Translations under genes and position numbers: made by a program
Part shown: positions 15,129-47,307 of the stretch, piece after piece
How the letters are laid out: the number at the start of each line of letters is the position of its first letter
Numbering within the stretch: the stretch's first letter is position 1
Virus record (IMG/VR): IMGVR_UViG_3300032288_004022
Coordinates: 1-64,000 of that record
Length of the DNA stretch: 64,000 bases
DNA from: a virus
Reading direction: 5' to 3' (one strand)
The notes under the pieces: generated by a model
What the model saw: the letters and a program-made list of their open reading frames with translations, nothing else
Told to the model about the DNA's origin: nothing
The model's database searches: none

Positions 15129-15491
15129 ATGAGCAGTATAAATTACACCAACTACAACATTGATCAAACAGTTCGGGTTTTTGACACGTTCTATGACTAC
15201 GACGTTGACATTCCTGTGGGCGACTATGACGTAGTCAACAGCTATTTCAAGTCAGTGATGACCACAAAACAAGCCGCTGACAACTTCACGGTGAGCCTGT
15301 TCAAGGTTGCGCAAGACACAAAAATACCACCCTTGGAATTGCTCAAAGTGTTTCAAGCCAGTGGTGAACAACTGGACTTGAACATCAACATGGCCTATTA
15401 TCTCAACAGCATTAGAAGCCGCGCTACACTGTTGGGCGTGGGCATTCCTGTTGTGCCAAACTTTTATCCGGCTAGAAACGTTGTGCAATAA
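15129..15491 (+). CDS. Conserved T4-like virion protein, unknown role
   Basis: 120 residues. The ATG at 15129 is preferred to an in-frame TTG at 15123, which lies directly after the previous stop. The sequence begins with a Tyr/Asp-rich strand region (VFDTFYDYDVDIPVGDYD) followed by helices (FTVSLFKVAQDTKIPPLELLKVFQ) and ends with AYYLNSIRSRATLLGVGIPVVPNFYPARNVV. The closing part is a strongly conserved-looking signature I associate with small structural genes next to head-completion genes in aquatic T4-like phages, but the function is unknown to me. It overlaps the gp4 start by one base (TAATG), so the two are translationally coupled. Confidence 0.65.
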   Translation: MSSINYTNYNIDQTVRVFDTFYDYDVDIPVGDYDVVNSYFKSVMTTKQAADNFTVSLFKVAQDTKIPPLELLKVFQASGEQLDLNINMAYYLNSIRSRATLLGVGIPVVPNFYPARNVVQ

Positions 15492-15922
15492 TGGCCAAGT
15501 GGGCACAGGGCACATACACCGTGGTCAATCGCGCCAAGTATGTGGGCAAGGGAGACCCAAGATATCGGTCGGGCTGGGAGTTCAGTTTCATGAAGTTCTG
15601 CGACAGCAACGACAATGTGTTGCAGTGGGCCAGTGAAGCTGTACAGATACCCTACAGACATCCATTAACTGGCAAGCAAACAATATACGTGCCAGATTTT
15701 TTGATAACTTATCGCACCAGAAACAACCAGGTGCGAGCTGAATTGATCGAAATCAAACCCAAAAAACAAAGTGTAGTGGAAAGCAAAATGAGCAGTCGAG
15801 ACCGTGCTGTGGTTGCTATCAATTACGCCAAGTGGGACGCAGCAACCCGGTGGTGCAAACGCCAAGGCCTGATGTTCAGAGTAATCACCGAACAAGACAT
15901 GTTTCACAACGGTCGAGCATGA
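15491..15922 (+). CDS. 4: Head completion nuclease (T4 gp4-like)
   Basis: 143 residues; T4 gp4 has 150. The opening KWAQGTYTVVNRAKYVGKGDPRYRSGWEFSFMKFCDSN is very characteristic of gp4. A PD-(D/E)xK nuclease core is visible: E30 in the GWEF segment, P68-D69 in YVPDF, and E87-x-K89 in IEIKPKKQ. gp4 (also called gp50/65) joins gp13, gp14 and gp2 in finishing the packaged head and may trim DNA. It is coupled to the preceding gene by one base and is followed by the small terminase. Confidence 0.86.
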   Translation: MAKWAQGTYTVVNRAKYVGKGDPRYRSGWEFSFMKFCDSNDNVLQWASEAVQIPYRHPLTGKQTIYVPDFLITYRTRNNQVRAELIEIKPKKQSVVESKMSSRDRAVVAINYAKWDAATRWCKRQGLMFRVITEQDMFHNGRA

Positions 15923-16465: not shown

Positions 16466-17071
16466 ATGAAACCATTTGCAAAATACCTAGCCGAAAGCGA
16501 ACGTACATACAACTATCGTATCAAAGTAGTTGGCGATGTGCCTGAGGGCTTTTTCAAGGAACTCAAGGAAAAGTGTGCGCAATTTGACGTTGTCAAAATG
16601 AGTGACCCCAAGAGCACCCCGGTGCGCAAAGTGATCCCGGACTTCCCAGCATTTCCCAATCAGCCCATGAAGATTGTGGATGTGGAATTCAAGTATCCGG
16701 CCATTGAGCCACAAATCAAACAACTGGCACAGTTGTTGAAACTGGATCCAAATCGCATTGTGATGATGGCCACACCATATGAAGAAAGTCTTGATATTGA
16801 AAACAACAAGATTGAAGATGAGAACAAAGACTTGTTGGACTCACCTTATCCTGCGCCAGACGCTCAACAAAAAGCCTTGAGCAAAGACTATGCTACCGGT
16901 CCTTATGATCATGCTGTGCTGAAGAACGCATATCGTACCAATTTCACCATTGCAGGAGAGAAAACACCTCCTGCCAAGACCACAAACGAATTGCCACAGG
17001 GCGACACAAGCCCCATGACCAACGTCAAGCGTCCACCCAAGCCAGCTACTGGCCGTAACCCAAGAGGATAA
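16466..17071 (+). CDS. Putative internal head protein with capsid-targeting-like N-terminus
   Basis: 201 residues starting MKPFAKYLAES. This closely resembles the capsid-targeting sequence of T4 internal proteins (MKTYQEFIAEA), which directs proteins into the prohead and is then cut by protease gp21 after an L/I-x-E site; LAE would fit. Residues about 15-115 form a compact alpha/beta region (YRIKVVGDVPEGFFKELKEKC; MKIVDVEFKYPAIEPQIKQLAQLL). The last 80 residues are Pro/Lys/Asn-rich and disordered. The protein family is unknown to me. It sits between the small terminase and a huge putative head protein, fitting a packaged virion component. Confidence 0.6.
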   Translation: MKPFAKYLAESERTYNYRIKVVGDVPEGFFKELKEKCAQFDVVKMSDPKSTPVRKVIPDFPAFPNQPMKIVDVEFKYPAIEPQIKQLAQLLKLDPNRIVMMATPYEESLDIENNKIEDENKDLLDSPYPAPDAQQKALSKDYATGPYDHAVLKNAYRTNFTIAGEKTPPAKTTNELPQGDTSPMTNVKRPPKPATGRNPRG

Positions 17072-17076
17072 TTCAA

Positions 17077-20000
17077 ATGACATTTTTTTACGACTTAAAC
17101 AAAAAGCTGGACAGTATTCGCGAGAAGCCAGAGACCACACACAAGCAGTTGAATGAGCGTGACGAAGGCAAGCCAGGCAAGAACTTTGCCAAGATTGCCA
17201 ATGATGCAGGCGAGCGTTATGGCAGCAAGGCCGCCGGCGAACGTGTGGCTGGTGCAGTACGCAACAAACTCAAGGCTCAAGGCAAGTTAGAAGAAGGCGA
17301 CATGGACGAATCAGCATTCCAAGCTGCTATTGGCAAAAAGAAATACGGCGCTGACGGTATGAAAGCGTTGCAAAAGGCCGGACGTGAAGGTGCCAGCAAG
17401 GCAACCATGGCTCGTATTCGTGACAAGCATGATCAGTATGACGAAGGCATTGAAGATCGAATTGGCGATCTAGATATGACCAACCCAGTTAATCAACCAG
17501 CATATCAACGCAAAGCCGCTGCTCAAGGCGGAAACAAAGTCAGCAAACCACCAATTATTGGAAACAGACGCGAAGGTTATCCTCGAATGTCAGGTGGCGG
17601 GGAAGTAGCCCCAATGCCAAAGAGCAGGGAAGGTTATCCTCGATTCTCTGGCGGCGGTGGCTACACTGGCAAAGGAGTCAAAGAAGAAGATTCTGCCGTA
17701 ATGACTCCTAAGCAAAAATCATTCGCTAAACTTGCACCTCCTGTAGACAAGATCACTTTTGCTGACAAAATTGCCGGCGCCAAAAAAGAAGTTGACGAAA
17801 TGCTGGGCGACGTTGCTGCTGAAGCAATGAAGTCAGCGCTGAAAGGCGGTCAGAAGAAGCTTGACAAAAACGACAACGGCCGACTAGACGCCAATGATTT
17901 TGCTATGTTGCGTGCTGGCAAAAAGCACTCAGTGAAAGAAGACGACAGCAGCATCAGAGACGATTTGGCGCATGAAATTCAAATGATTTTGGATAGTGCA
18001 TTAGGTGGTCTAGACCAAACAGATCATATCATTGATGAGTTGGGAGACATACAACAAGCTGTTGAACAGTCAGGCGATTCAGTAGCTATGCAAGCCCTTC
18101 AGATCATGAGTAGTGGAATTGATGAAGGCGCGAAAAAACAAATCAGGCTTGCTCGCAAAGCATTGAGTCTGCTCAAGGGCAAGCAAGAAACCGACGAAGG
18201 TTGGGACGACATGCTCAAAGCTGGTGAGGAGCGTAGACACTCAGGCATGAAGCCTGGTGAAAAAACTCAAGGCCACAAAGGCGAAATTGAAAGAACAGCC
18301 ACTGGCATCCGTCACACACGTCGTTACGATCCCAAGACAGGCGAAACTGATGCTGGAGATGATGTTCCAGCTCAGGGCGAAAAGCGCGGCCGTGGACGAC
18401 CAAAAGGCAGCAAAGCAGCCATTGGCGCCAAAGGCCCCAGCGGTAAGAGCAAGTTAATGACTCGCGAAAGCAGTCAACAAGAGTTGGATGAAGCCATTGC
18501 CAGGCTAGAAGCTGCTGGCTACACTGTTGAGAAAGCACCCCCAGGTGCCAAGGCAGAACGCATGGTAAAACACATCAAGGCAGGATATGCTGATGATGGC
18601 AAAATTACAGATCGTGAAAGAGGCATTGCCTATGCCACTGCTTGGAAAGCCAAGAAAGCCGGCAAGGTTGAAGAAGAAAGCGACGAACAGCGTGACGAAA
18701 AAGCTGAAAAAGCTGGACGCCGTGTAGCCAAAGACATCGAGTACGATGAAAAAGTCAAAGACAAAATCCATGGCAAAAAGCGTGGCAGCGAAGATGACAC
18801 AGCTGAAAAAGCCGGCAAGAAAGTCACCAAAGACATCGAGTACGACGAAAAGAAAAAGAAAGTCAAAGAACAAGGCGGCGCAGAAACCCCCACGGCGTCA
18901 AGTGGCTTCAGCTTTGGCAAAGGCATTTATGACTCAATGAATCGTGAACTAGAAAGCATGATTGCTGAGAGCATGAACATTAGCATGAACATGAACACAG
19001 ATGCCAATGGTGGCCCGAGCCGGAGCCTGACAGTTACAGCCACCGATGACGATGCATTGAAACTGGGCGCATTGTTGAAAAACGCAGGCCTAGGCGGACA
19101 TGACATGGGCGGTGCTGCAGAAGTAGAAGTACACGGTGCAGAAGACATTGCTGATCGAATTCGTCAAGCCTTGGGCAGCGAGCATGGCTCAGAAGAAGTG
19201 TGCGCAGATTGCGGACATGCTGACTGTGAATGCGATCATGAAGAGATGAGCGAAGCCTACGGCGACACAGCCGTGGATGAAAACAACCCTGACTTCCCTT
19301 CCAATACCGAGTACAACACCGATGCATTGCAATATGCAGGCGGCCTAAACAAGCCCAAGACTGATGTTGCTGGTGACGGTCAAACAACCATCCCCAACAC
19401 AGCAGTACACACTCAATCTGAGGACGACTTGCGTCGCTTGCGCGAGATGGCTGGTGTGAATCGCAGCAACAGACTTGACGAAGGTCTCATTAATAAACTT
19501 AAAGATTTTCTGGTGCCAAAACTAATGAAGTTGTTGGGTCCAGACGCAGAAAGTGTTGCTAATGCAGTTAGACAAGCCACCGGTGGCGATCTTACTCCCA
19601 GCAAAGAAAATGCCATGAAGGTAGTACAAGCCCTGGGGATCAACAAAGCAGCCGGCCAAGATCAATCACAAATGGCCGAAGGCATTGCTGGTAACTGGCA
19701 AGGTAAACTGATTCAATCCTTGTACACATTGGGTCTACTTGGTTCAGCAGGTGCTGCAATGTCCCTGGGTGGCACAGTAGGCGGCAATTTTGCGGGTGTT
19801 ATAGGCATATTGCTGTTGATGTTTGCTAACACATTCTTTGGCGAAGCACCTGGACAAGTTGGAGCTATGGGTAAGTTTGGTAACAAAGGAACCAGTGCCC
19901 CACAAGGCTTAGACATTCACGGCATGCCTGTTAGAAACATGAACGTGGACGAAAGCGATGATCTTGCTCGCATGATGGAAATGGCCGGCGTCAAGAAAAA

Positions 20001-20184
20001 AGCTGTTGATGAAGAAAAAACTGACGAAGGCAACAAGTTAACTGGCGGCCTAGCTGATGACGATATCAAAGTTGGTGAAAAGATTCCAGGTACCAATGTT
20101 ATTAAGAAAAAAGACATTGACGAAGGCATTCTTGCTTCTACTGCCAATCTCTGGAAAGAATACAAAGGCCAATACGGAGTTTAA
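17077..20184 (+). CDS. Giant putative internal head or ejection protein
   Basis: 1035 residues, very rich in Lys, Glu, Asp, Gly and Ala and largely disordered. Visible features: seven DEG tripeptides at intervals, three as I/LDEG (possible gp21-type cleavage sites); an internal duplication (GRRVAKDIEYDEK and GKKVTKDIEYDEK); a Cys cluster (CADCGHADCEC); two copies of a short motif, LRRLREMAGV and LARMMEMAGV, also seen in other genes here; a region at about 875-925 with two hydrophobic helices (LIQSLYTLGLLGSAGAAMSLGG and GVIGILLLMFANTFF); and a GRGRPKGSK AT-hook-like element. I do not recognise a named family. Disorder, DNA-binding elements and hydrophobic helices suit a protein packed in the head and injected with DNA, but this is inference. 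Confidence 0.5.
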   Translation: MTFFYDLNKKLDSIREKPETTHKQLNERDEGKPGKNFAKIANDAGERYGSKAAGERVAGAVRNKLKAQGKLEEGDMDESAFQAAIGKKKYGADGMKALQKAGREGASKATMARIRDKHDQYDEGIEDRIGDLDMTNPVNQPAYQRKAAAQGGNKVSKPPIIGNRREGYPRMSGGGEVAPMPKSREGYPRFSGGGGYTGKGVKEEDSAVMTPKQKSFAKLAPPVDKITFADKIAGAKKEVDEMLGDVAAEAMKSALKGGQKKLDKNDNGRLDANDFAMLRAGKKHSVKEDDSSIRDDLAHEIQMILDSALGGLDQTDHIIDELGDIQQAVEQSGDSVAMQALQIMSSGIDEGAKKQIRLARKALSLLKGKQETDEGWDDMLKAGEERRHSGMKPGEKTQGHKGEIERTATGIRHTRRYDPKTGETDAGDDVPAQGEKRGRGRPKGSKAAIGAKGPSGKSKLMTRESSQQELDEAIARLEAAGYTVEKAPPGAKAERMVKHIKAGYADDGKITDRERGIAYATAWKAKKAGKVEEESDEQRDEKAEKAGRRVAKDIEYDEKVKDKIHGKKRGSEDDTAEKAGKKVTKDIEYDEKKKKVKEQGGAETPTASSGFSFGKGIYDSMNRELESMIAESMNISMNMNTDANGGPSRSLTVTATDDDALKLGALLKNAGLGGHDMGGAAEVEVHGAEDIADRIRQALGSEHGSEEVCADCGHADCECDHEEMSEAYGDTAVDENNPDFPSNTEYNTDALQYAGGLNKPKTDVAGDGQTTIPNTAVHTQSEDDLRRLREMAGVNRSNRLDEGLINKLKDFLVPKLMKLLGPDAESVANAVRQATGGDLTPSKENAMKVVQALGINKAAGQDQSQMAEGIAGNWQGKLIQSLYTLGLLGSAGAAMSLGGTVGGNFAGVIGILLLMFANTFFGEAPGQVGAMGKFGNKGTSAPQGLDIHGMPVRNMNVDESDDLARMMEMAGVKKKAVDEEKTDEGNKLTGGLADDDIKVGEKIPGTNVIKKKDIDEGILASTANLWKEYKGQYGV

Positions 20185-20185
20185 T

Positions 20186-20356
20186 ATGAGCTATCAACCT
20201 TACAATACTCCACTAACAACACCACCTGTGCAAAATCCGCACAGCCCTGCCACCAACGGATACAAACAGCAACCTGTTGATATCCCTGGGGTACTACATC
20301 AATCACGCCAACTGTATCAACCTGTGGTGAGTGAAACGCCCAAGGAGAGCAAGTAA
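20186..20356 (+). CDS. Small Pro/Gln-rich protein, unknown
   Basis: A 56-residue gene between the giant protein and the next small structural gene, starting with ATG one base after the preceding stop (TAATATG). It is made almost wholly of Pro, Gln, Asn, Tyr and Ser (YQPYNTPLTTPPVQNP), so it is disordered. It overlaps the next start by one base (TAATG). Tight packing on both sides and continuous frame support a real gene. Function unknown; possibly a virion or scaffold peptide. Confidence 0.55.
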   Translation: MSYQPYNTPLTTPPVQNPHSPATNGYKQQPVDIPGVLHQSRQLYQPVVSETPKESK

Positions 20357-20685
20357 TGCCTGCCGTTCAAGTTGTAAATTCCACAGGCAACGTTGCATGG
20401 ACCACAGACAAAGTGGAAATTGCAACCACAGCCGCCACAGTTACATTTCAAGTTAGTTTGACACAAACTCAATACATACAGGCCAATGGTGTTCCTGTAA
20501 ATACCAGTATGCCAACTGGCAACTTGTATGCCAACGCTATTGTAGTACCAGGTAACACTGTACAACAGTACTATGTTGGTGCAGGAAACTACTTGAATAT
20601 CGTGTCTGGATCTGGATTTAGTGCCACGGCTCTGGGCACAGCAAGTTCAGCCACTGCTGGCGTCTACGGTTCGACTTCAAGCTGA
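20356..20685 (+). CDS. Small virion-like protein, unknown
   Basis: 109 residues. All-beta composition rich in Thr, Val, Ala, Gly and Ser with few charges: VNSTGNVAWTTDKVEIATTAATVTFQV and IVVPGNTVQQYYVGAGNYLNIVSGSGFSATALG. It looks like a small decoration or head-fibre protein of the kind often found in T4-like phages. It is coupled to the preceding gene by one base and to the next MRAHEF gene by a one-base gap. No family recognised. Confidence 0.55.
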   Translation: MPAVQVVNSTGNVAWTTDKVEIATTAATVTFQVSLTQTQYIQANGVPVNTSMPTGNLYANAIVVPGNTVQQYYVGAGNYLNIVSGSGFSATALGTASSATAGVYGSTSS

Positions 20686-20686
20686 T

Positions 20687-21067
20687 ATGCGAGCACACGA
20701 ATTCATTGCTGAAGGCAGCCGACCCGGTCGCCGCGCTGAAGCCAGCCACGAATTTGATGTTGCTCACCCTGGTTTGGTTGGTCCTCCAGCTGCTGGTGAC
20801 ACTTATTGGGGACGGTACTATGATTTTTATCGCGTGTCCAGCTTGGCAGGCATGGACCTTGAGCAACTTGAAAGCGCCGACGACATCAGCTTCTTTGGCA
20901 ACCTACCGGTGTTTAGTGCATACACCGAATACGATCGTCGCAAACTCATTGCCATAATGAAAAAGCTGGGCATGAAACCGCAAGAGCATGTCAAGCCTGG
21001 CAGTCACGAGCCAGATTATGTAAACAAAGCAAGCCCACTGCCGGCATTCAAAGGTTACAAAAAGTAA
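20687..21067 (+). CDS. Small protein with MRAxEF capsid-targeting-like N-terminus (1)
   Basis: 126 residues from the ATG at 20687, directly after the previous stop. An upstream in-frame ATG at 20621 would overlap the preceding gene and is not needed. The N-terminus MRAHEFIAEGS parallels the T4 internal-protein targeting sequence, with IAE as a possible protease site. It shares with the genes at 21942 and 22334 a C-terminal ending of the type HVxKASPxxAFxGYK (here EPDYVNKASPLPAFKGYKK). The middle resembles neither closely (YYDFYRVSSLAGMD). It is one of a family of small paralogues probably packaged in the head. Confidence 0.6.
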   Translation: MRAHEFIAEGSRPGRRAEASHEFDVAHPGLVGPPAAGDTYWGRYYDFYRVSSLAGMDLEQLESADDISFFGNLPVFSAYTEYDRRKLIAIMKKLGMKPQEHVKPGSHEPDYVNKASPLPAFKGYKK

Positions 21068-21069
21068 TC

Positions 21070-21945
21070 ATGTGTGTAATACTTGCCAAATACTTTGACG
21101 GTATTGGCTGGGCCGGTGCCAAAAATCGAGACCGGAACTACACACCAGCCCTGGACTTCATTGAAGATACTGCCCACGGTGTGGATCGCATGATGATGCA
21201 TGATCAAGTCACTGGTTATCGAGAAGGCATCAACAGTCGCGGCATCAGTATACTGAACACCAGCCTGGACGTGGGCGATGACGAAAGCGAAGTTGAAGCC
21301 GGAACTGCTAACACCAGTCCTGATGGCAAAATCATTGCCGAAGCATTGAGTCACGGCTCGATTCAAGATGCTGTCAAAGTCTTGATCAAACACAAACTGG
21401 GCGGCTGTACCATGGTATTTGATCAGGACGATCTTTACTTGATCGAAGCCAGCGACTGGGACGGCACCCGGCCCTTCAAGTACGTGGTCAAACAGATACC
21501 AAAAAACAAAATGATTGCCAGAACCAACCATGGCATGTGGTTGCAGGATGCAGGCTATCAACGTGATCCCTCAAACAAAAGTCACACACTCAGCAGAATC
21601 AGCAGCGAATCCAGATTGGCCTTGGCCGAAGCTGTGGTAAAAACTGCGCAAAAACCCGAAGATTTGGTAGACGGCATGTGTCAAGTCTACATCAACGATC
21701 CTCAGCTAAATATAATGAGAACCAGTACAGAGCGTAAAAAAATGCGCACCACCAGTCAGCAACTGTGTGTGCCCCAAGAACGAACACTGTACTGTAGACC
21801 GGTCAGCAGCCATTTAGAGTTTGATTTCTGGAACTTGAACAAGCCAGAAAACAATGTTTGGGTAGAGATACTGAGCAATCGAGCACTGTGGCAAAACACC
21901 CGGGGAAATCCCCCGTTTGGTCACATGAATATGAGGGATGTATGA
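21070..21945 (+). CDS. Ntn-hydrolase (choloylglycine hydrolase / penicillin V acylase-like)
   Basis: 291 residues starting Met-Cys. In N-terminal nucleophile hydrolases of this group, Met is removed and Cys2 attacks an amide bond. Supporting residues are in the usual order: C2, R20 and D21 in KNRDRNY, a GINSRGISILNTSL strand with N63, and N153 in ARTNHG. The family cleaves linear amides (bile salts, penicillin V, acyl-homoserine lactones) or transfers acyl groups (C45 peptidases). The substrate here is unknown. It is embedded among genes for putative head proteins with capsid-targeting-like starts, three bases after one and overlapping the next by four (ATGA), so a virion-linked or lysis-related role is possible. 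Confidence 0.72.
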   Translation: MCVILAKYFDGIGWAGAKNRDRNYTPALDFIEDTAHGVDRMMMHDQVTGYREGINSRGISILNTSLDVGDDESEVEAGTANTSPDGKIIAEALSHGSIQDAVKVLIKHKLGGCTMVFDQDDLYLIEASDWDGTRPFKYVVKQIPKNKMIARTNHGMWLQDAGYQRDPSNKSHTLSRISSESRLALAEAVVKTAQKPEDLVDGMCQVYINDPQLNIMRTSTERKKMRTTSQQLCVPQERTLYCRPVSSHLEFDFWNLNKPENNVWVEILSNRALWQNTRGNPPFGHMNMRDV

Positions 21946-22337
21946 GAGCACGTGAGTTTGTGATGGAAGTCAAGTATGGTGCAGCCGAGGATGTTCCTGC
22001 GGATGCCAAGAAGCTGCCTAAATCTCACGCCAGCGCCATCAAGGGAGCCATCAGCATGCCCGATATCAGCCAAACCAAACAAGGCGGCAGTCCCTATACC
22101 CAATGGCGCTTTGGTATTGCCATGGCCGGTGCACCTGACTACCCCACACCAGCTGCCGGAGCATTTGCCGGTGACCCGCTGTTGGCAACCTACAGCGATG
22201 CTGATTTAAAAATTATCAACAGCGCAGCAAAATCAGTAGGCGCCGGCGAAGTTAAAAAATTAACTGACAACCGCAGTACCGAGGCTGAACATGTACACAA
22301 AGCAAGTCCAGTGAAAGCATTTGGAGGATACAAGTGA
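21942..22337 (+). CDS. Small protein with MRAxEF capsid-targeting-like N-terminus (2)
   Basis: 131 residues from the ATG overlapping the Ntn-hydrolase stop. Starts MRAREFVMEVK. The middle, YTQWRFGIAMAGAPD, parallels YRSYRFGVAMARARS in the next gene, and the end EHVHKASPVKAFGGYK parallels the gene at 20687. So these three are paralogues that share head and tail segments. No catalytic motif. Inferred to be an internal head protein; function otherwise unknown. Confidence 0.62.
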   Translation: MRAREFVMEVKYGAAEDVPADAKKLPKSHASAIKGAISMPDISQTKQGGSPYTQWRFGIAMAGAPDYPTPAAGAFAGDPLLATYSDADLKIINSAAKSVGAGEVKKLTDNRSTEAEHVHKASPVKAFGGYK

Positions 22338-22714
22338 GAGCCCGAGAATTTATTACTGAACAAAGAGAGCTGCCGCCTGAGTCTCGAGATCCCATGCGTG
22401 ATACTTATATCCTGCCAGGTCTGAGTTCATCTGACCCTTATCGCAGCTATAGATTTGGCGTGGCCATGGCCCGAGCCCGAAGTGAATATCGCAAGGACAA
22501 TGTTAACCCGCATATATTGCCTTGGTCAGCAGAAACTGCATTTGGTGAACATGCAATTGTTGCTGGTTTTAATCATGGGGTGGCTGACATTATTGATGCG
22601 GCCCTGGAAATGACCGACACCCCGGGTGGCAAACAGGCGGTATCCAGTTTGCCCAGTGCAGAACCTGATTTTGTTGAGACACAAAGCCCGCTAAATAGTT
22701 TCAAAGGATATTAA
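22334..22714 (+). CDS. Small protein with MRAxEF capsid-targeting-like N-terminus (3)
   Basis: 126 residues, GTG start overlapping the previous stop (GTGA). Begins MRAREFITEQ, with ITE as a fitting prohead-protease site. The RFGVAMA segment and the ending EPDFVETQSPLNSFKGY are shared with the two paralogues upstream. One base separates it from the next MRAxE gene, so the set is a translationally coupled cluster. Function unknown. Confidence 0.62.
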   Translation: MRAREFITEQRELPPESRDPMRDTYILPGLSSSDPYRSYRFGVAMARARSEYRKDNVNPHILPWSAETAFGEHAIVAGFNHGVADIIDAALEMTDTPGGKQAVSSLPSAEPDFVETQSPLNSFKGY

Positions 22715-22715
22715 A

Positions 22716-23078
22716 ATGAGAGCCTCCGAAATACTACGCAAACTTGCTGATGTGATTGATGCAAAGTCTGCCCCCGCGCCCACACAACAATCCAGTCAAG
22801 AACCAGCCGCTGGAGGAGATGAGTTGATTCCCACTCCGTATGGTACATTTCTACCACCACTACAAGGCAAGTTTGAATTGCTGAAAAAGGCAGTTGGTGT
22901 AGATAACGTGTACGATGAAAACGTAGGCAACGTGTCTGACGATCCTGAAGCATCAAATCACAAAGTCACACCTATGAGCCCTGAAGAGTCTGAAGCATTG
23001 GCTCGCATGAAAAAAGCCGCGGGCGTGAATGCATTAATCACTAGCGAACTCAGCGACGACGAACCGTTTGACGGTTAA
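22716..23078 (+). CDS. Small putative head protein, MRASEI start
   Basis: 120 residues. It begins MRASEILRKLADVI, a variant of the MRAxEF start without an L/I-x-E site. The middle is Pro/Gln-rich, followed by TPYGTFLPPLQGKFELLKKAVGV. Near the end, ALARMKKAAGVNAL repeats a motif found twice in the giant protein at 17077 and once at 29997, again in an acidic setting. These shared short motifs suggest binding to a common head partner. No family recognised. Confidence 0.58.
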   Translation: MRASEILRKLADVIDAKSAPAPTQQSSQEPAAGGDELIPTPYGTFLPPLQGKFELLKKAVGVDNVYDENVGNVSDDPEASNHKVTPMSPEESEALARMKKAAGVNALITSELSDDEPFDG

Positions 23079-27269: not shown

Positions 27270-28400
27270 ATGACGAATTTTTACTGTGCGGCCCCATGGC
27301 GTGGGCTGCATATCAATCCACAAGGCAATGTCAAAACATGTTGTGCTGGCAACCCCGACATGCTGGGAAATCTCAATTCAAACGACATTGAAGAAATATT
27401 GAATTGTGACGCCATGAAGGAAATACGCCACAGCATAGCACAAGGCGTGGCACCCAAATATTGCTCAAACTGTGTAAAAGCCGAACGTTTTGGCGCTGAC
27501 TCAGAACGTGCCTGGCACAATAGTGTGAACCCCAACTTTGATTATACCACCGCAGGAGATCAGTATCATTATCCCGTGATCTTTGATGTACGATGGAACA
27601 CCACTTGTAATCTCAGTTGTAATTACTGTGGGCCCAGTTGTTCCAGTAAATGGGCCAGTATCAAAAATCTACAGTTCCGATCAGGTACAAAACCTTACTA
27701 CGAACAAGTGTGTGACTTTCTTGATCAACACCGTGAACACATACACGAAGTTGCCATGGTGGGCGGCGAGCCATTGCTGTTACCCGAAAACGAACGATTG
27801 TTGGACGTCATACCTGAATCTGCTGTTGTTACTTTGATCACAAACATGTCAGTAGATTTACAAAAAAATCGTGTATTTCAAAAACTTGCCCGTCGCCGCA
27901 ATGTAGGCTGGTCAATGAGTTTTGATAATATCGGCGATAGATTTGAATATGTGCGTCACGGTGCTGATTGGCAGTTGTTACAGGACAACTTGCAGACAGT
28001 TAAATATCTCATGCAAAACAACGGACATTGGGGAGGTATACACGCAGTGTACAACATTTACAGTGCCACACGTGTCTGTGAGTTTAGGCAGTTTGCTCAT
28101 GATACTGGCACCACAGTGTTGTGGCAAAATTTATTTCAGCCTAATTATCTTGACCCGTTTTTGCTTGGTACCCAAGTGGCCAAACTAGCCAGTGATGAAA
28201 TTAATCAATTTTATGAAATGGGTATTGCTACACCCATGGAGCGGCAATTTTTTGATCATGCATTAGAAAAATACAAACAAGTAAAAGACAATAATTGGGC
28301 ATCAATACAATTTCAAAAACACATACAAGATAACGAAACAATATTCCATCCCAGCAAGGCCGGGGAGTTTGCACGTTTGTGGCCGGAGTTGGCAGCATGA
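27270..28400 (+). CDS. Radical SAM protein with N-terminal twitch-type Cys region
   Basis: 376 residues. The radical SAM cluster motif is CNLSCNYC (C113, C117, C120), and VGGEPLLL fits the usual GGEP SAM-binding segment. Before the core, a SPASM/twitch-like Cys pattern appears (C6, C24-C25, C65 and C68, with LGNL and KEIR between). This arrangement is that of N-terminal-twitch radical SAM proteins found in aquatic phages and bacteria; auxiliary [Fe-S] binding is expected. The substrate is unknown. A second enzyme of the type is at 61820, and a SAM synthetase at 35948. The gene overlaps the large terminase by four bases (ATGA). Confidence 0.8.
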   Translation: MTNFYCAAPWRGLHINPQGNVKTCCAGNPDMLGNLNSNDIEEILNCDAMKEIRHSIAQGVAPKYCSNCVKAERFGADSERAWHNSVNPNFDYTTAGDQYHYPVIFDVRWNTTCNLSCNYCGPSCSSKWASIKNLQFRSGTKPYYEQVCDFLDQHREHIHEVAMVGGEPLLLPENERLLDVIPESAVVTLITNMSVDLQKNRVFQKLARRRNVGWSMSFDNIGDRFEYVRHGADWQLLQDNLQTVKYLMQNNGHWGGIHAVYNIYSATRVCEFRQFAHDTGTTVLWQNLFQPNYLDPFLLGTQVAKLASDEINQFYEMGIATPMERQFFDHALEKYKQVKDNNWASIQFQKHIQDNETIFHPSKAGEFARLWPELAA

Positions 28401-29986
28401 TTGGATCCAAAGGAACACTAGACACTGTGCTGGTCAAGGCACCGCACCGTAAGGAAACCTTCACTGAACAAGAACTAGAAGAATTTGCCCGTTGCGCTGA
28501 TCCTGTCAACGGTCCTATGTACTTCTTGGACAATTTTTTCTACATTCAGCATCCCACACGTGGCAAGATGCTGTACCATCCTTTTGAATATCAAAAACGC
28601 CTGATTGAAAATTACCACAACAATCGGTTTAGTATTTCTTTGATGCCACGACAAACAGGCAAGTCAACTTCGGCAGCCGGTTACCTGTTGTGGTATGCCA
28701 TGTTTGTTCCAGACTCAACAATTCTTATTGCTGCACACAAGTATCTTGGCGCACAAGAAATCATGCAGCGCATTCGCTATGCGTATGAGTTGTGTCCCAA
28801 TCATATCAGAGCCGGTGCCACCAGCTACAACAAAGGCAGTTTGGAATTTGACAACGGATCACGTATTGTATCGCAGACCACAACTGAAAACACTGGTCGT
28901 GGTATGAGTATTACCTTGTTGTATCTGGACGAATTTGCGTTTGTACGGCCCACGATTGCCAAAGAGTTCTGGACTTCTATTACACCCACACTGAGCACTG
29001 GTGGTAAGGCAATTATTACCAGTACTCCAAACAGTGATGAGGATCAATTTGCCTATATCTGGAAGGGCGCCAACAAGATTGAAGATGAATATGGGAACCT
29101 TAGACCCAACGGACTTGGCATCAATGGGTTCAAGGCATTCCGTGCATTTTGGCGAGAACATCCCGAACGCGATGAACAGTGGGCTGATGAGCAACGAGCA
29201 CAGCTTGGTGATGAACGTTTTCGCAGAGAAATGGACTGCGAGTTTGTTATCAATGATGAAACCTTGATCTCACCAATAAAATTACTGGAGCTTGAAGGCA
29301 TAGAGCCTATGCGCAAAACTGGGCAAGTTCGCTGGTACAAAGCAATTGACCCAGAAAAAATGTATATTGTTGCTCTAGATCCCAGCCTGGGCACCGGTGG
29401 CGATCCCTCGGCTCTACAAGTGTTTGAAGCTGAAACCACACAGCAGGTAGCTGAGTGGCGCCACAACAGAACCGACATTCCCACGCAGGTAAAAATACTA
29501 GCCGACGTGGTCAAAGAAATACACTCAGTTATCAAAGACAACAAGCGCATTTACTATTCTGTTGAAAACAATACCCTGGGCGAAGCAGCATTGATTTCCA
29601 TTGCAGAGTACGGCGAGGAAAATATTCCAGGATATTTTCTCAGCGACAACTCGGTGGTGGGCACAACTGGGCGCAGATTTCGCAAGGGATTCAACACCAC
29701 AAACAAAGCCAAATTAACCGCTTGCAACAAGTTCAAAATTTTAGTGGAATCGGGCCGCATGAAAATCCACTCAAAACCCTTGCTCAGCGAACTCAAAACT
29801 TTTGTGGCCAACGGAGCCAGTTACGCTGCAAAGATTGGGGAAACTGATGACTTGGTCATGGCCAGCTTGTTGGTAACTAGAATGCTGATTTTGTTGCAAA
29901 GTTATCACACTGAACTAGATGTGCACCTCAAAGATCACTCGGACAACATCATTGAGCCTCTTCCGTTCATTTCAATAATGCGCTAA
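28397..29986 (+). CDS. 17: Terminase large subunit (T4 gp17-like)
   Basis: 529 residues; T4 gp17 has 610. The ATG at 28397 overlaps the previous stop and is preferred to an in-frame codon at 28379. The ATPase domain has an adenine-binding FEYQKRL, a Walker A of the gp17 type (MPRQTGKST, 83-91), Walker B LLYLDEF (D178, E179) and a coupling motif ITSTPN. The C-terminal RNase H-like nuclease has IVALDPSLGTGGDPS (metal Asp), YYSVENNTLGE and GETDDLVMA. It pumps DNA into proheads and cuts concatemers. Small subunit is 12 kb upstream. Confidence 0.93.
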   Translation: MIGSKGTLDTVLVKAPHRKETFTEQELEEFARCADPVNGPMYFLDNFFYIQHPTRGKMLYHPFEYQKRLIENYHNNRFSISLMPRQTGKSTSAAGYLLWYAMFVPDSTILIAAHKYLGAQEIMQRIRYAYELCPNHIRAGATSYNKGSLEFDNGSRIVSQTTTENTGRGMSITLLYLDEFAFVRPTIAKEFWTSITPTLSTGGKAIITSTPNSDEDQFAYIWKGANKIEDEYGNLRPNGLGINGFKAFRAFWREHPERDEQWADEQRAQLGDERFRREMDCEFVINDETLISPIKLLELEGIEPMRKTGQVRWYKAIDPEKMYIVALDPSLGTGGDPSALQVFEAETTQQVAEWRHNRTDIPTQVKILADVVKEIHSVIKDNKRIYYSVENNTLGEAALISIAEYGEENIPGYFLSDNSVVGTTGRRFRKGFNTTNKAKLTACNKFKILVESGRMKIHSKPLLSELKTFVANGASYAAKIGETDDLVMASLLVTRMLILLQSYHTELDVHLKDHSDNIIEPLPFISIMR

Positions 29987-37067: not shown

Positions 37068-37826
37068 ATGAAAATCGTACTTGTTACAGGTGGATTTGAT
37101 CCACTACACTCTGGACACATCTCTTATCTCAATCATGCGGATCATTTAGGTGATCACTTGATCGTGGGTCTAAATTCAGATGAGTGGCTCTCACGTAAAA
37201 AAGGTCGTCCGTTCATGACTTGGCGTGAACGCATGGTTGTTCTAGACAACTTACACATGGTCGGCGAGGTAATTGAGTTTGACGACAGAGATGGCACAGC
37301 CTGTGATGCCATACGCCGAGTTCGGGAAAAGTACCCCAACGATGAAATCATCTTTGCCAACGGAGGTGATCGTACAGCAAACAACATTCCAGAAATGGTG
37401 TTCAATGATGTGGAATTTGTGTTTGGTGTAGGTGGCGAAGATAAGAAAAACAGTAGTAGCTGGATTCTTGAAGATTGGAAAAAGCCCAAGACCGAACGTA
37501 GTTGGGGTTACTACCGTGTGTTACACGAAGTGGGTGCCAACACCAAACTCAAAGAGCTCACAGTACAGCCTAAGACTTGTTTGAGCATGCAACGACATGA
37601 TCAACGTGCAGAGTTTTGGTTTGTGGCCGAAGGCACAGCCACAGTATACACCTTGGACCAAGCCAGCACAGACATCGATGTCAAATGTCAGCTGGAAATG
37701 CATCAACATACTTTTATTAGTTGCAAGGAGTGGCACCAACTGTGTAACGAAACTGATCAGCCCTTGAAACTGATCGAAATTCAGTACGGTGAAAACTGTG
37801 TTGAGGAAGATATAGAACGCCGATGA
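37068..37826 (+). CDS. Cytidylyltransferase-like / sugar-phosphate cupin fusion
   Basis: 252 residues in two parts. Residues 1-125 are a nucleotidyltransferase of the cytidylyltransferase superfamily: GGFDPLHSGH with H14-x-x-H17, and GLNSDEWLSRKKGRPFMTWRERM, as in RfaE/TagD-like enzymes. From about 155 the sequence is a cupin resembling the C-terminal part of type II mannose-6-phosphate isomerase/GDP-mannose pyrophosphorylase: RSWGYYRVLHE, LSMQRHDQRAEFWFVAEGTA, and IEIQYGENCVEEDIERR. The fusion may combine sugar activation with isomerisation or binding. It overlaps the next glycosyltransferase by four bases. The usual family members have one or the other domain. Confidence 0.78.
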   Translation: MKIVLVTGGFDPLHSGHISYLNHADHLGDHLIVGLNSDEWLSRKKGRPFMTWRERMVVLDNLHMVGEVIEFDDRDGTACDAIRRVREKYPNDEIIFANGGDRTANNIPEMVFNDVEFVFGVGGEDKKNSSSWILEDWKKPKTERSWGYYRVLHEVGANTKLKELTVQPKTCLSMQRHDQRAEFWFVAEGTATVYTLDQASTDIDVKCQLEMHQHTFISCKEWHQLCNETDQPLKLIEIQYGENCVEEDIERR

Positions 37827-38509
37827 AAGCCATACCAGTTTATATTGGCTACGATCCTCGTGAGGCCATTGCCTATCATACCTGTGTCAACAGCATCATA
37901 AGAAACGCCAGTCAGCCAGTGGCCATCATACCTGTGGCCTTGAATTTGTTTGGCGACTACAGCGAAACTCACACCGATGGCAGCAACCACTTTATCTACA
38001 CTAGATTTCTAGTTCCCTATCTTCAAGAATACACAGGTCATGCCATATTCATTGACGGCGACATGATTGTGCGTGGTGATATTGCAGAACTTTGGAACTT
38101 GCGCGACTTATACAAGGATGTTCAAGTGGTCAAACATGACTACAAAACTCGAATGCCTGTGAAATATCTTGGTTCAAGGAACGAAGACTACCCTAGGAAA
38201 AATTGGAGCAGTGTGATATTATGGAACTGCAACAGTTACCCTAATCGAAAACTCACTCCAGAATTTGTTCAACGAGCCACAGGTGCTGAACTTCATCGCT
38301 TCTCGTGGCTGGATGATGATCGCATAGGCGAGTTACCACCTGAATGGAATTGGTTGCCCGATGAATACGGGTCAAACCCCGCGGCCAAGCTCTTGCACTA
38401 TACCTTGGGCACTCCATGCTTTCATGAGTTCGCCGACACCCCCATGGCGGATGAGTGGCACCGTGAGCGCATGCTTACTGAGTATTGTTTGCAACACAAC
38501 TCTCAATGA
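37823..38509 (+). CDS. GT-A glycosyltransferase
   Basis: 228 residues. GT-A fold features: VYIGYDPREAIAYHTCVNSI at the start, a metal-binding IDGDM (D78-x-D80), RFLVPYL before it, and a C-terminal HYTLGTPCFHEF, as in family-8-like glycosyltransferases. No signal or membrane segment, so it is cytoplasmic. It would transfer a sugar from a nucleotide donor to an unknown acceptor, perhaps a surface glycan or virion protein. It overlaps neighbours on both sides by four bases. Confidence 0.78.
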   Translation: MKAIPVYIGYDPREAIAYHTCVNSIIRNASQPVAIIPVALNLFGDYSETHTDGSNHFIYTRFLVPYLQEYTGHAIFIDGDMIVRGDIAELWNLRDLYKDVQVVKHDYKTRMPVKYLGSRNEDYPRKNWSSVILWNCNSYPNRKLTPEFVQRATGAELHRFSWLDDDRIGELPPEWNWLPDEYGSNPAAKLLHYTLGTPCFHEFADTPMADEWHRERMLTEYCLQHNSQ

Positions 38510-39300
38510 CCGACTGGATTTTTCTCAGTAAAAATTCCGAGGACGAATATATCAACATGTTTGCCCGTGGCTGCGGTGCAGAACCAGTTGCAGATTTTGA
38601 TTATAATTCAACCAATCAGCCCATAGTTCTACGAGGCATACTCAAACACAAAATAATGAAACAGTGTTGGGTTGATTGTAGAGATTTCTATTACATTGAT
38701 TCAGGGTATTTTGGTAACAATCCCAATCCGTTGAATCCCCAAGGATGGAAAGTGTGGCATAGAATTGTAAAAAACAATCTACAACATGGAGATATTGTTT
38801 TGCGTCCTGATGATAGGTGGAAACGGTTCAACATTGATCTACAGAAAAAACGCACAGGCTCAAAAATCATTGTGGCTGCACCTGATGAAAAACCCTGCAA
38901 GTTCTACGGCATAGATCAACAACAGTGGGTCACTGATACTGTAAACACCATTAAAAAATACACAGATCGTCCCGTGGTGGTCAGACAACGATCACCCAAC
39001 AGAATAGATCGAATACAAAGTGATCCACTCAGCAAAGTGTTGCTGGATGATACACATGCCTTGGTCACTTTCAACAGCGTGGCCGCTGTTGAAAGTATAT
39101 TACTGGGTGTGCCGGCATTTGCACTATCGCCCAGCCATGCTGCTGCACCGGTGGCCAATCAGGACCTAAGTCTAATAGAAACTCCGTATTGGCCAGATCA
39201 AGATAAATTATATGCATGGGCTTGTCATTTGGCCTATGGACAGTTTCATGTTTCGGAACTACAAAATGGCACTGCTTATAGGATATTAAATGCTGGTTAA
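38506..39300 (+). CDS. Glycosyltransferase-like paralogue 1 of 5
   Basis: 264 residues from the ATG overlapping the previous stop. Common pattern of the five paralogues: a variable N-terminal half, then [TS][DN]RP-V/I-V-x-R (here YTDRPVVVRQRSP), then a CHALVTFNS-like segment (HALVTFNSVAAVESILLGVPAFAL), then W or pocket motif and an ending like AYGQFHVSELQNGTAYRIL. The layout (HP near the middle, then Ser/Asn followed by VES/IDSVLxGxP) resembles GT-B capsule synthesis enzymes such as KpsS/KpsC-like. Here HP is replaced by RSP, so the catalytic status may differ. Substrate unknown. Confidence 0.6.
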   Translation: MTDWIFLSKNSEDEYINMFARGCGAEPVADFDYNSTNQPIVLRGILKHKIMKQCWVDCRDFYYIDSGYFGNNPNPLNPQGWKVWHRIVKNNLQHGDIVLRPDDRWKRFNIDLQKKRTGSKIIVAAPDEKPCKFYGIDQQQWVTDTVNTIKKYTDRPVVVRQRSPNRIDRIQSDPLSKVLLDDTHALVTFNSVAAVESILLGVPAFALSPSHAAAPVANQDLSLIETPYWPDQDKLYAWACHLAYGQFHVSELQNGTAYRILNAG

Positions 39301-40231
39301 AGTCTTTTTGGAAACCGCTGGAAATTTTGAAGAACGAGAAATTCTCACCAAGTTCTACAACGGCATTGTCAACGCTGCCAATAACAATACACAAGCCGCA
39401 CTGGGTCTGTATAATTCATACAGCCCATGCGACGTAGGAGTTATACTGGGTAGTTGGAAACCTCGAGATAAAAATCATCACAATGTACGCAACGATATTG
39501 TGGAAAATGTCTCAACGTTTATTGTGATTGAAACTCCGTTGCTTGGCAGAGTGGTCAATCAACAAAACACTCAACATAGAATTGGTATCAACGGGTTTCT
39601 GAATCAAAGCGGAATATTCAATCACGGCAATCACAATGACAGCAGAGTAAAAAAACTTGGAATCGAGTGGAACGGATGGAAGCATGATCCCAACGGACAT
39701 ATTCTTCTCATGTTACAGTTGCCTGGTGATGCAAGTCTACGCGGAATCAACTTGTATGAATGGGTTGATTATGCAATTAAAAAAATTAGATCAGTGACCG
39801 ATCGCCCCATTGTGATTAGAACTCATCCGGCACATGGTATTAAAAATTCAGACGAATTTCATAATCTTGTGTCGTCGGTCGCGCTGTCAAGTCTTAAATC
39901 TAATATATCTTTTAGCATAGGCAGACACAAATCGTTTGAGGATGATGTGTTGGGGGCGTATTGTTCAGTGGCCTACTCCAGCGGCAGTAGTATCGACAGT
40001 GTATTGCATGGCATACCCACAGTGGCTGTTGATCCGGGAAATTTTGCATGGGACATATCAACCAACTATCTTGATGAAATTGAAACTGTCAAACTGGCCA
40101 CACAAGATGAAATCAATCAGTGGTTAAACAATTTGAGCTACAGTCAATGGTCTCCTGAGGAAATGTACAACGGAACAGCATGGAAGCATCTAGCATCAAT
40201 GATAAGACGAATTGCCAATAATAAAAAATGA
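39290..40231 (+). CDS. Glycosyltransferase-like paralogue 2 of 5
   Basis: 313 residues; overlaps the previous gene by 11 bases and the next by four. Family motifs: VTDRPIVIRTHPAHG in the middle, CSVAYSSGSSIDSVLHGIPTVAVDPGN, and LSYSQWSPEEMYNGTAWKHL at the end. This copy has the HP and Ser-Gly-x-x-x-D segment expected in GT-B capsular transferases. The N-terminus (VKVFLETAGNFEEREILTKFYNGI) resembles that of the next paralogue. Cytoplasmic. Likely makes part of a surface glycan or modifies phage DNA or proteins; inferred. Confidence 0.62.
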   Translation: MLVKVFLETAGNFEEREILTKFYNGIVNAANNNTQAALGLYNSYSPCDVGVILGSWKPRDKNHHNVRNDIVENVSTFIVIETPLLGRVVNQQNTQHRIGINGFLNQSGIFNHGNHNDSRVKKLGIEWNGWKHDPNGHILLMLQLPGDASLRGINLYEWVDYAIKKIRSVTDRPIVIRTHPAHGIKNSDEFHNLVSSVALSSLKSNISFSIGRHKSFEDDVLGAYCSVAYSSGSSIDSVLHGIPTVAVDPGNFAWDISTNYLDEIETVKLATQDEINQWLNNLSYSQWSPEEMYNGTAWKHLASMIRRIANNKK

Positions 40232-41139
40232 AAGTGGCAGTTTATCATCGCAGTGTGCCCAATGCAAAAAATCAGGAAAAGATCGATGTGTTACGATATT
40301 TTGCACAAGGAGTTCAATGCACTGGAGACCAACTGATTGATGTGCAAGATTACAGTTATCAGGCATCGCAGGTGGGAGTCATACAGGGTTGGATTGGACC
40401 TGCAAAAGTCACCAGTCAACATCAGCAATTGAGAAACACTGTTATAAACAACCAGATACAATTCAACAAGTATGTGGTGGCTATTGACAGTAATTTGTTC
40501 TTGTATGCCACACCCGGAAACCCTGACCACTATCTTCGATACAGTTTCAATGGTGTATTCCCTAACACCGGCATCTACTGTGACACCACAGTGGATCCTG
40601 TAAGATGGCAAAAAATCAGTGCAACATTAAATATCAGATTAAAAGATTATAGAACACAAGGCAATCATATCTTGTTGTGTCTTCAACGCAATGGTGGGTG
40701 GAGCATGGGAAATTATGACGTGATTGCTTGGTCACACAATACCATTGCTGAACTTAGAAAGCACACCAACAGGCCCATTGTGATCCGTGCGCATCCAGGA
40801 GACAAAGCAGCCAGAGTGTATGTGAACAGTATCACAGGGCCCGGTGTAACAATCAGTGGAAATGCCAATCTTGCAGATGATTTAAAAAATTGTTGGGCAG
40901 TGGTCAATCACAATTCCAGCCCAGTAGTGGGCGCAGCCATTGAAGGTTACCCAATTTTTGTGACTGACACTGCTCGTAGTCAATGCAGAGAGATTGCCAA
41001 TACTGATTTATCCATGATTGAAAATCCACAGTTGCCGGATAGACAATCTTGGATCAATCGAATTTCGATGTTTCATTGGAATTTTGAAGAACTAAAATCT
41101 GGCCAGTGTTGGCAACACATGCGAAGATATATAATGTGA
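40228..41139 (+). CDS. Glycosyltransferase-like paralogue 3 of 5
   Basis: 303 residues; overlaps the previous gene by four bases and the next by one. Motifs: HTNRPIVIRAHPGDKA, CWAVVNHNSSPVVGAAIEGYPIFVTD and MFHWNFEELKSGQCWQHM. Similar N-terminal pattern to paralogue 2 (VAVYHRSVPNAKNQEKIDVLRYFAQGV). A tandem duplication origin is plausible. Function as for its relatives: GT-B-like, substrate unknown. Confidence 0.62.
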   Translation: MKVAVYHRSVPNAKNQEKIDVLRYFAQGVQCTGDQLIDVQDYSYQASQVGVIQGWIGPAKVTSQHQQLRNTVINNQIQFNKYVVAIDSNLFLYATPGNPDHYLRYSFNGVFPNTGIYCDTTVDPVRWQKISATLNIRLKDYRTQGNHILLCLQRNGGWSMGNYDVIAWSHNTIAELRKHTNRPIVIRAHPGDKAARVYVNSITGPGVTISGNANLADDLKNCWAVVNHNSSPVVGAAIEGYPIFVTDTARSQCREIANTDLSMIENPQLPDRQSWINRISMFHWNFEELKSGQCWQHMRRYIM

Positions 41140-41960
41140 TGCAACAACTACAAGTACTCACAGAAGAATTCAAAGACCATCCATGGATCCCAGGATGGAT
41201 TGAGGCTGGGTACGATATTAAATTTGTTACCAATCACACTGATGTTGTTGACTCTATTCCAGTGGTGTGCGGATCTGATTTATCTCACAACTATGTGTGT
41301 CGCTGGTTGAATATGAAACAACCAGCAGTGTACATTGGCCGAGGATACGTGGGCAATCACACTTCAAAAAAGCGGCGGCTTTGGAGAGCCAGTGTGAATG
41401 GGTGGGCAAATACAAAATTAATGCCGGTTCCGCACAGTAGATGGAACACAATGATGTTGTCCAGACATCCATGGAAAGTCAAACAAGTTCAAAAAGTATT
41501 GATTGCCCCAAGCAAGATGGTCAGCAACGTTTGGAGTCAAGTGGGAGCACGTACCTGGGCTGAGAATATGTTGGACAAATTTCCTGGAGCCGAAGTCAAA
41601 ATTAGATACAAAGCCAGCACTCCTTGGGAACGATGGGCCACATTGTGGGAAGATTTAGACTGGTGCGACTTAGTGGTAACACAGAGTTCGGCAATAACTT
41701 GCGAAGCACTTTGGTACGGTAAAAAAGTCATCAGCATAGAACCTTGCCCCACTTGGGCCGCTGAACACACCACGTTAGAAGATTGGCAAAATCCGCACGA
41801 ACCTGAACTAAGAGATGCCTGGCACGAACACCTGGCCTGGAGCCAATTTACTGTGGATGAATGGACGTCGGGCGAAGCATTGAGTTTGATCGAACAGTAC
41901 ATGGGACCTGTACTGGATTATGATGCCCAACACCAGTACAATTTACCAATTTTGTATTAG
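41139..41960 (+). CDS. Glycosyltransferase-like paralogue 4 of 5 (diverged)
   Basis: 273 residues from the ATG overlapping the previous stop (TGATG); the earlier in-frame codon at 41106 lies in the previous gene. This is the most diverged copy: the [TS]DRP motif is replaced by FPGAEVKIRYKAS, but the later parts remain (CDLVVTQSSAITCEALWYGKKVISIEP, HLAWSQFTVDEWTSGEALSLI). Trp is frequent. Convergent with the rfbD-like gene, stops overlapping by four bases. Function unknown. Confidence 0.55.
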   Translation: MQQLQVLTEEFKDHPWIPGWIEAGYDIKFVTNHTDVVDSIPVVCGSDLSHNYVCRWLNMKQPAVYIGRGYVGNHTSKKRRLWRASVNGWANTKLMPVPHSRWNTMMLSRHPWKVKQVQKVLIAPSKMVSNVWSQVGARTWAENMLDKFPGAEVKIRYKASTPWERWATLWEDLDWCDLVVTQSSAITCEALWYGKKVISIEPCPTWAAEHTTLEDWQNPHEPELRDAWHEHLAWSQFTVDEWTSGEALSLIEQYMGPVLDYDAQHQYNLPILY

Positions 41961-42751
41961 TAATTTTTAAGTTCAAGCAACATGGTATCGTAATCGGGGA
42001 TACCAAAGTCAATTTCTTTGCGAGTGTCAACCAGCACTTTGTTCACTGCCTTGGGACCTTGTGTCTGCACAATGTGTTTGCCCAGTGCATACACATCATT
42101 GATCTTGCACAGCAAATCAAATTTGTTGATTTGATTGTGATTACTGACCAGATGATACACTCCGGCAACAGTGGGATCGTTGATGTACTGATTGACACAC
42201 TTGGCCAACTGCAACGTGGTGATGCCATTCCACCAGGCATTTGACCAACCGGGCAGTTCAGAATCCGGGTTGGTCAACACCCAATTAAGCAATCCAGTAC
42301 CGTTCTTTAGTTCGGGACCAATTATGCTCATTCTAAAGGTAATGTCTTTGGCATTGTTGACTTCACCAAAACTCTTGCTACGTCCATAAGCATTGGTTTC
42401 TGTGTGGTAGTCGCTTTCGACGTAGTTGCCACGAGCACCGTCAAACACACAATCAGTTGACAGATGTATCAGGCGTGTGTTGGTATTTTTTAACCGATGA
42501 GCACAATACTGTGGCCACCAGGCATTGACAACAGCGGCTCGATCGGGCCGATCCGTGCAATCTTTTACCAACAAACCAACCGCATTGACTAAAAAATCTG
42601 CGTCTAGTGAATCAAAAAAACTGTCAACTGATTGCTGTTCAATATCAAGCTGTGTTCTATCCACCATGGTCACAGCATGTCCGCAACGTTGAAGATAATC
42701 CGCGATCATGTGCCCAGCCATGCCGCGACTGCCAACCACAGTTACTTTCAT
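41957..42751 (-). CDS. NAD(P)-dependent sugar reductase (dTDP-4-dehydrorhamnose reductase-like)
   Basis: 264 residues from the ATG at 42751, overlapping the upstream stop by four bases; a longer frame to 42844 lies inside the upstream gene. Rossmann motif GSRGMAGH (7-14). VNAVGLL, LIHLSTDCVFDG and YGRSKSFGE give the Ser/Thr-Tyr-x-x-x-Lys triad of RmlD-like short-chain reductases, and WWNGITTLQLAKCV follows. It would reduce a 4-keto-sugar nucleotide produced by the dehydratase next door. So the two make an activated deoxysugar in sequence. Confidence 0.82.
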   Translation of the reverse strand: MKVTVVGSRGMAGHMIADYLQRCGHAVTMVDRTQLDIEQQSVDSFFDSLDADFLVNAVGLLVKDCTDRPDRAAVVNAWWPQYCAHRLKNTNTRLIHLSTDCVFDGARGNYVESDYHTETNAYGRSKSFGEVNNAKDITFRMSIIGPELKNGTGLLNWVLTNPDSELPGWSNAWWNGITTLQLAKCVNQYINDPTVAGVYHLVSNHNQINKFDLLCKINDVYALGKHIVQTQGPKAVNKVLVDTRKEIDFGIPDYDTMLLELKNY

Positions 42752-43728: not shown

Positions 43729-43729
43729 T

Positions 43730-44281: not shown

Positions 44282-44296
44282 GATATTCCTTTGATG

Positions 44297-46402: not shown

Positions 46403-46413
46403 GAAAAATACTT

Positions 46414-47271: not shown

Positions 47272-47307
47272 TCACACTTGTGGCCCAGAGCCAGGTATAT
47301 AATTGTT

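Follow-up and report, generated by a model that had tools for sequence, protein, structure and literature searches.

Candidate T4-like capsid-targeting tags, including a shorter MRA-type form, on unrelated proteins of a T4-like phage record and its relatives

Five genes lying within 6.6 kb of one viral DNA stretch begin with similar short peptides, which raises the question of whether these peptides direct their proteins into the phage head. The stretch analysed (the window) comprises 64,000 nucleotides, positions 1 to 64,000 of IMG/VR record IMGVR_UViG_3300032288_004022, and belongs to a phage record of 95,571 bases with a T4-like structural cluster. The products of the five genes, here named A to E, start MKPFAKYLAES, MRAHEFIAEG, MRAREFVMEV, MRAREFITEQ and MRASEILRKL. 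The initial annotation read them as one five-member family with a T4-like capsid-targeting N-terminus. All five N-termini are present, although the gene limits needed correction. Comparison with relatives gives good support to T4-like capsid targeting for A–D, through register, conservation, portability, the gp21, gp22 and gp23 genes of relatives and virion detection in phage PA5oct, but not for gene E, a member of another family without the Glu.

The first 10 residues of the T4 internal protein IPIII are enough for packaging (PMC9026906). Within such a capsid-targeting sequence (CTS), residues 4 and 7 act chiefly in targeting and residues 8 and 10 in processing; gp21 of T4 cleaves after L/I-X-E, and a CTS with Asp at position 10 is blocked in processing yet still allows targeting (PMC9026906). 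The T4 sequences compared here were ipII/ipIII (MKTYQEFIAE↓A, where the arrow marks the known or presumed cut), gp24 (MAKINELLRES) and gp23, with L-x-E at Glu65.

Gene A (16466..17071; 201 residues; MKPFAKYLAE↓SERTY..; like all features below, on the plus strand unless stated) follows the T4 register. Its tag (16466..16495, residues 1–10) agrees with the T4 CTS at positions 4, 7, 8 and 10 (Phe4, Tyr7, Leu8, Glu10), having aromatic residues at the two targeting positions and ending in L-A-E at residues 8–10. Because many rows of the alignments A1 and A4 had been fetched by the tag, which biases them on invariance, conservation was judged from searches with profile hidden Markov models of the bodies only. 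For gene A, the first 14 residues were removed from the profile, and the loci searched came from fetches that used neither A nor its tag, except for eight from the MRA-type scan, which the MK-type scan returned too. F/L4, Y7, L/I8 and E10 are kept in all 51 distinct A relatives, with residues 3, 5, 6 and 9 variable; the starts were matched to a tag-like expression allowing several residues at 4, 7, 8 and 10, and none failed.

Genes B (20687..21067; 126 residues; MRAHEFIAE↓GSRPG..), C (21942..22337; 131 residues; MRAREFVME↓VKYG..) and D (22334..22714; 126 residues; MRAREFITE↓QRELP..) carry a form that is one residue shorter and is referred to here as MRA-type (residues 1–9; 20687..20713, 21942..21968 and 22334..22360, respectively). 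The ATG of B sits within a longer frame opened by a GTG, and the GTG start of D overlaps the stop of C. The hydrophobic pattern of T4 positions 4 and 7 is found here only in part, as Ala3 and Phe6. I-A-E in B and I-T-E in D occupy residues 7–9, so that the L/I-x-E endings previously proposed for A, B and D hold; C reads V-M-E at these residues. The three genes are homologous over their full length (blastp, C–D E 1e-10 over 142 columns; B–C E 9e-7). As one whole-length family, they would be expected to share both ends by descent, and their mutual resemblance is by itself weak proof of a tag; they cannot be counted as the independent occurrences the initial annotation took them for. In a body-only search of loci not fetched by the tag, however, MRAxEF[ILVM]xE opens 68 of 68 B/C/D relatives, with residues 4, 8 and 10–12 variable, even though the bodies are mostly only 20–35% identical. 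E9 is also constant in 69 distinct D sequences, in which residue 8 is free (T, R, A, K, N, V and others). This constant–free–constant arrangement ahead of the presumed cut is the pattern of a protease site.

The tags are also concentrated at gene starts. In three relatives of 320–349 kb, with gene starts taken from a simple purpose-made caller, 18 of 1169 predicted genes have [FY][ILV]xE with its Glu at position 9 or 10, where the frequency at other positions predicts 2.4; chance thus does not account for four starts of this kind in about nine genes of a 6.6-kb region. The looser expression [FYIL][LIV]xE gives an N-terminal peak at Glu 9 (16 genes, compared with a mean of 3.85 at positions ≥20).

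The head genes that a T4-like CTS presupposes were found in relatives, outside the 95.6-kb fragment. Among 15 large relatives, the prohead protease (PF03420) is present in 12 and gp23 (PF07068) in 13, and gp21, a gp22-like gene and gp23 stand in T4 order. The gp23 proteins of these relatives contain a conserved YL[KR]E↓N just ahead of the region aligning to mature T4 gp23; it was matched to the T4 site by motif and neighbourhood, there being an aligner gap at that point.

Virion data come from PA5oct (Arenbergviridae). Searches of cultured phages with A and D by tblastn gave no match; a diverged homologue of A as query reached proteins of the PA5oct group and of Atu_ph07. Gene A is linked to PA5oct gp282 by phmmer (E below 1e-4). 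This orthologue has the same location as A, with head closure on one side and terminase on the other. A 'virion structural protein' family of PHROG matches it, and the PA5oct record annotates it as a structural protein detected by electrospray ionisation tandem mass spectrometry (ESI-MS/MS). The Atu_ph07 homologue retains MKTLQDYLTE↓S, and the conserved start MKTLQDYLTESKK precedes its annotated one by 29 codons (L480:301-387). Two other PA5oct proteins may be recorded here. The ESI-MS/MS virion protein gp246 (L150:9230-9544), translated from a GTG, begins MKIKDILVES and resembles a short tag. The product annotated as 'head maturation protease', gp212 (L150:32050-32721), reads as ClpP-like by eye and was not used as evidence.

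A portable tag should occur on unrelated bodies, and it does. Tags stand on other bodies, outside the A–E cluster, in whole genomes G001, G005 and G006. A scan of IMG/VR contigs with a DNA pattern for MRAxEF[IV]xE returned at least 120 stretches, with 103 start-proximal open reading frames (ORFs) among the matches listed, whereas a permuted control pattern matched 25 stretches across the entire collection, of which nearly all fell inside long frames; the pattern for the T4-style, MK-type tag had 14 fixed bases. Once stripped of their tags, the bodies fall into at least 24 (MRA-type) and at least 14 (MK-type) clusters without detectable similarity, as defined by sequence (phmmer and family profile), so that some may be distant relatives. 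By family assignment, tagged bodies include the anti-CBASS protein Acb1 (PF23474; L406), DUF6267 (L423), an HD hydrolase (HD_4; L459), an S-adenosylmethionine (SAM) lyase (PF23780; L466), a GNAT protein (L309), DUF6321 (L344) and a ParB-like protein (L298). In each of these seven, the domain match begins downstream of the tag. A NUDIX protein has the variant start MRANEFTQ.

Some cultured T4-like phages encode Acb1 homologues with leader-like starts: MKPKSFREHLNQTSTDFITE↓A in pv27 (Vibrio; L481), MKSFLEVVKPVVE↓A in Phynn (Pantoea; L483) and MKSFKDFV in Pectobacterium phage POP12 (L482). T4 57B, unlike these, starts MMEFKDFSTGLYV. To judge from their starts, the Acb1 proteins of pv27, Phynn and POP12 may be packaged.

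The likely explanation of these observations is that A–D carry T4-type capsid-targeting propeptides, cleaved after Glu, on proteins that are injected with the DNA. The tag would be a short amphipathic N-terminus that takes the form M-K-x-F-x-x-Y-L-x-E in A and, one residue shorter, M-R-A-x-E-F-[IVL]-x-E in B, C and D. By binding the scaffold core (gp22), it would cause the protein to be built into the prohead, where a gp21-type protease, whose predicted cut in the major capsid protein follows Y-L-K-E, would remove it after the Glu and free the body. The freed body would remain in the head with the DNA and enter the next host with it. Because such a tag is portable, phages could attach it to a wide range of proteins that are not related to one another, known counter-defence families among them. 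The virion presence of B–D, and gp22 binding, cleavage and injection for all four proteins, are inferred from these comparisons.

The closest precedent is T4 itself, whose Ip1–3 are non-homologous, injected anti-restriction proteins with the leader as their only shared part (PMC12373910). As in gene A, the CTS of IPI, IPII and IPIII has aromatic or hydrophobic residues at 4 and 7, L/I at 8 and Glu10. Both systems combine a short N-terminal tag with unrelated small bodies and with gp21, gp22 and gp23 in the same phages (here, in relatives). They differ in that the B–D tag is one residue shorter, of MRA form and without an aromatic residue at 4, and in that the cargo of the relatives is much wider (Acb1, SAM lyase, GNAT, HD, NUDIX and ParB-like proteins). 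No homology of the A–E bodies to the IPI, IPII or IPIII families was found (Pfam, PHROG; E 0.01). Since the type IV restriction enzymes inhibited by Ip1–3 differ although the leader is shared, B, C and D may plausibly serve counter-defence, by analogy. T4 gp24 and Alt are likewise cut by gp21 at a short L/I-x-E, gp24 in the same register (MAKINELLRE↓S), but these are a shell protein and an enzyme, respectively, without homology to A–D. In phiKZ and SPN3US, many head proteins are cut after Glu by the prohead protease and many are ejected into the host (PMC9026906); there the motif is S/A-x-E (phiKZ), the propeptides are different, and the phages belong to another group.

The shorter MRA-type variant and the much wider cargo are new here; the open literature, to which the search was limited, yielded no account of an MRA-type tag. 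On balance, the comparisons favour a broader reading, in which this 9–10-residue tag would be a general address label. With it, T4-like and jumbo phages of a large and for the most part uncultured group would package and inject dozens of effector families unrelated to one another, Acb1 and SAM lyase among them, so that injected counter-defence proteins could be listed by their tag, from sequence alone. Internal proteins of T4-like phages have been identified by this leader, and the three of T4 all proved to be anti-restriction factors (PMC12373910). Were the same true of the MRA- and MK-type tags in uncultured phages, injected effectors could be picked out of metagenomes by a simple rule read from sequence, there would be an explanation of how proteins like Acb1 or SAM lyase might act at the very onset of infection, and protein delivery would gain another packaging signal, shorter than the first.

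Several observations weigh against the proposal of cleaved, injected proteins. Relatives encode gp21 homologues, but neither gp21 nor gp23 was recognised in the 95.6-kb record, itself a fragment, when its ORFs were read without a profile search. Furthermore, gp21 was not found on many tag-bearing contigs, which are fragments, and gp21/gp23 co-occurrence is weak over 32 tag contigs, because most of these are short. No cultured phage with an MRA tag was found, and the virion presence of B–D is inferred. The MRA form has Ala at the place of the T4 aromatic residue 4. Gene C has Val instead of Leu/Ile at P3, as do many relatives, and in one B/C/D relative (L307) the Glu is missing from the start, MRLFEFSKSL. 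Finally, PA5oct gp282 (MKSFRDYYDAS) keeps F4 and Y7 but, unlike gene A, lacks Glu10; its detection in the virion therefore supports targeting, not cleavage.

The absence of Glu10 from a virion protein also speaks for an explanation in which the tag targets the virion but is not usually cleaved, the Glu being part of a scaffold-binding surface and the proteins staying full length in the head. The T4 Asp10 result separates targeting from processing in just this way, and the hydrophobic spacing 3/6/7 recurs in gene E and its relatives, which have no Glu there. This explanation is nevertheless unlikely. The Glu is invariant in both body-only sets (68/68 and 51/51) and its neighbour at 8 or 9 is free, which is also the P3–P1 pattern of the gp23 cleavage region in these phages. 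Moreover, where the tag is exchanged on one body, the boundary falls at the Glu (MRASEFVTE↓ACWSDYQQQGMKRKGN in L316 versus MRYREILE↓ACWTGYQQQGMKRKGN in L299).

It is less probable still that the tag directs proteins elsewhere than to the head core, for example to the baseplate, tail, host membrane or a replication compartment. The cluster in the window does lie among tail and neck genes, and G001 and G006 have further tagged genes in other gene clusters. However, gene A follows the T4 register for head targeting residue by residue, the Glu site of the tag matches the region of the prohead protease site in gp23, and A is close to head-closure and terminase genes. The head closure (gp4-like) gene (15491..15922; PHROG 218, E 2e-39; Pfam TnsA-like N) anchors the A–E cluster in the head/neck region, and the terminase large subunit (28379..29986) is about 54% identical to those of PA5oct-group jumbo T4-like phages. 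PA5oct shares the gene order of head–tail adaptor, sheath, tube, head closure and gene A position, and the untagged 1035-residue protein that follows gene A (17077..20184) is the positional counterpart of the PA5oct virion protein gp281.

Simple descent is disfavoured and very improbable. On this account B, C and D, which are indeed paralogues, spread by duplication and kept their N-terminus as part of the fold, and the likeness of A to T4 is coincidental. Conservation is far higher in the tag than in the body, though, and the tag stands on the at least 24 bodies without detectable similarity; the structure model of gene D, itself uncertain (mean predicted local distance difference test score of 70) and without a fold match, assigns low confidence to the tag. 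It is hardly credible that the constant peptide is a by-product of a nucleotide-level signal, such as one for translation start or a late promoter. Of 103 tagged genes, 30 have a late-promoter-like TAAATA beginning 10–13 nt ahead of the ATG, compared with 81 of 922 others (Fisher p 4e-8), and 81 of the 103 have CGA for Arg2. But codons vary freely at the constant residues (Ala3 GCA/GCT/GCC, Glu GAA/GAG, Phe TTT/TTC) and the encoded residue itself varies at 4, 8 and 10, so that the constraint acts on protein. The TAAATA at this distance (tagged genes in L228-L346) could yield nearly leaderless late mRNAs.

The bodies themselves gave no Pfam or PHROG match for any of A–E (E 0.01). That of gene A is unrelated to B/C/D; its structure model has a helix at residues 4–10 followed by an alpha/beta domain of ribosomal-S6-like topology, which indicates no function. 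Gene E (22716..23078; 120 residues; start MRASEILRKLADVIDA) represents a third family, with a conserved N-terminal helix that has no Glu at 9 or 10, and was accordingly rejected as a tag bearer. The C-terminal element reported previously for three genes was confirmed as SxE...SPxxxFxGY in B (SHEPDYVNKASPLPAFKGYKK; 21002..21064), C (STEAEHVHKASPVKAFGGYK; 22275..22334) and D (SAEPDFVETQSPLNSFKGY; 22655..22711). Its SxE, followed by its SP, are the most conserved body residues of the family and near-invariant in alignment A1, and they are a possible second processing or targeting site; the extreme C-terminal end takes two forms, FKGYPR-like and KKNKYGV-like. One ORF (L338:3597-3947, minus strand) joins an MRA tag and the B/C/D C-terminal element (SSEELADTNKGSALKPLKGYKR) to an unrelated, membrane-protein-like middle; it may be a genuine chimera or a product of misassembly.

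Other genes of the record were noted in passing. Between B and C, the gene at 21070-21945 starts with Met-Cys and has no tag; its product matches the C45 autoproteolytic acyltransferase family (NF040521) weakly, below the cut-off, and is perhaps an N-terminal nucleophile (Ntn) hydrolase using that Cys. An isocitrate lyase beside a D-amino-acid-dehydrogenase-like enzyme (L001:13602-15982, record positions 76602-78982) and an IscU Fe-S scaffold (L001:7182-7595, record positions 70182-70595), as identified from sequence, are unusual auxiliary metabolic genes. Window positions 37823-48671 contain several proteins of about 270–315 residues that are alike by eye, three of which were tested and had no NCBIfam match. 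The same interval holds a run of glycosyltransferase-like and sugar-nucleotide-epimerase-like genes, which suggests a surface glycan pathway encoded by the phage.

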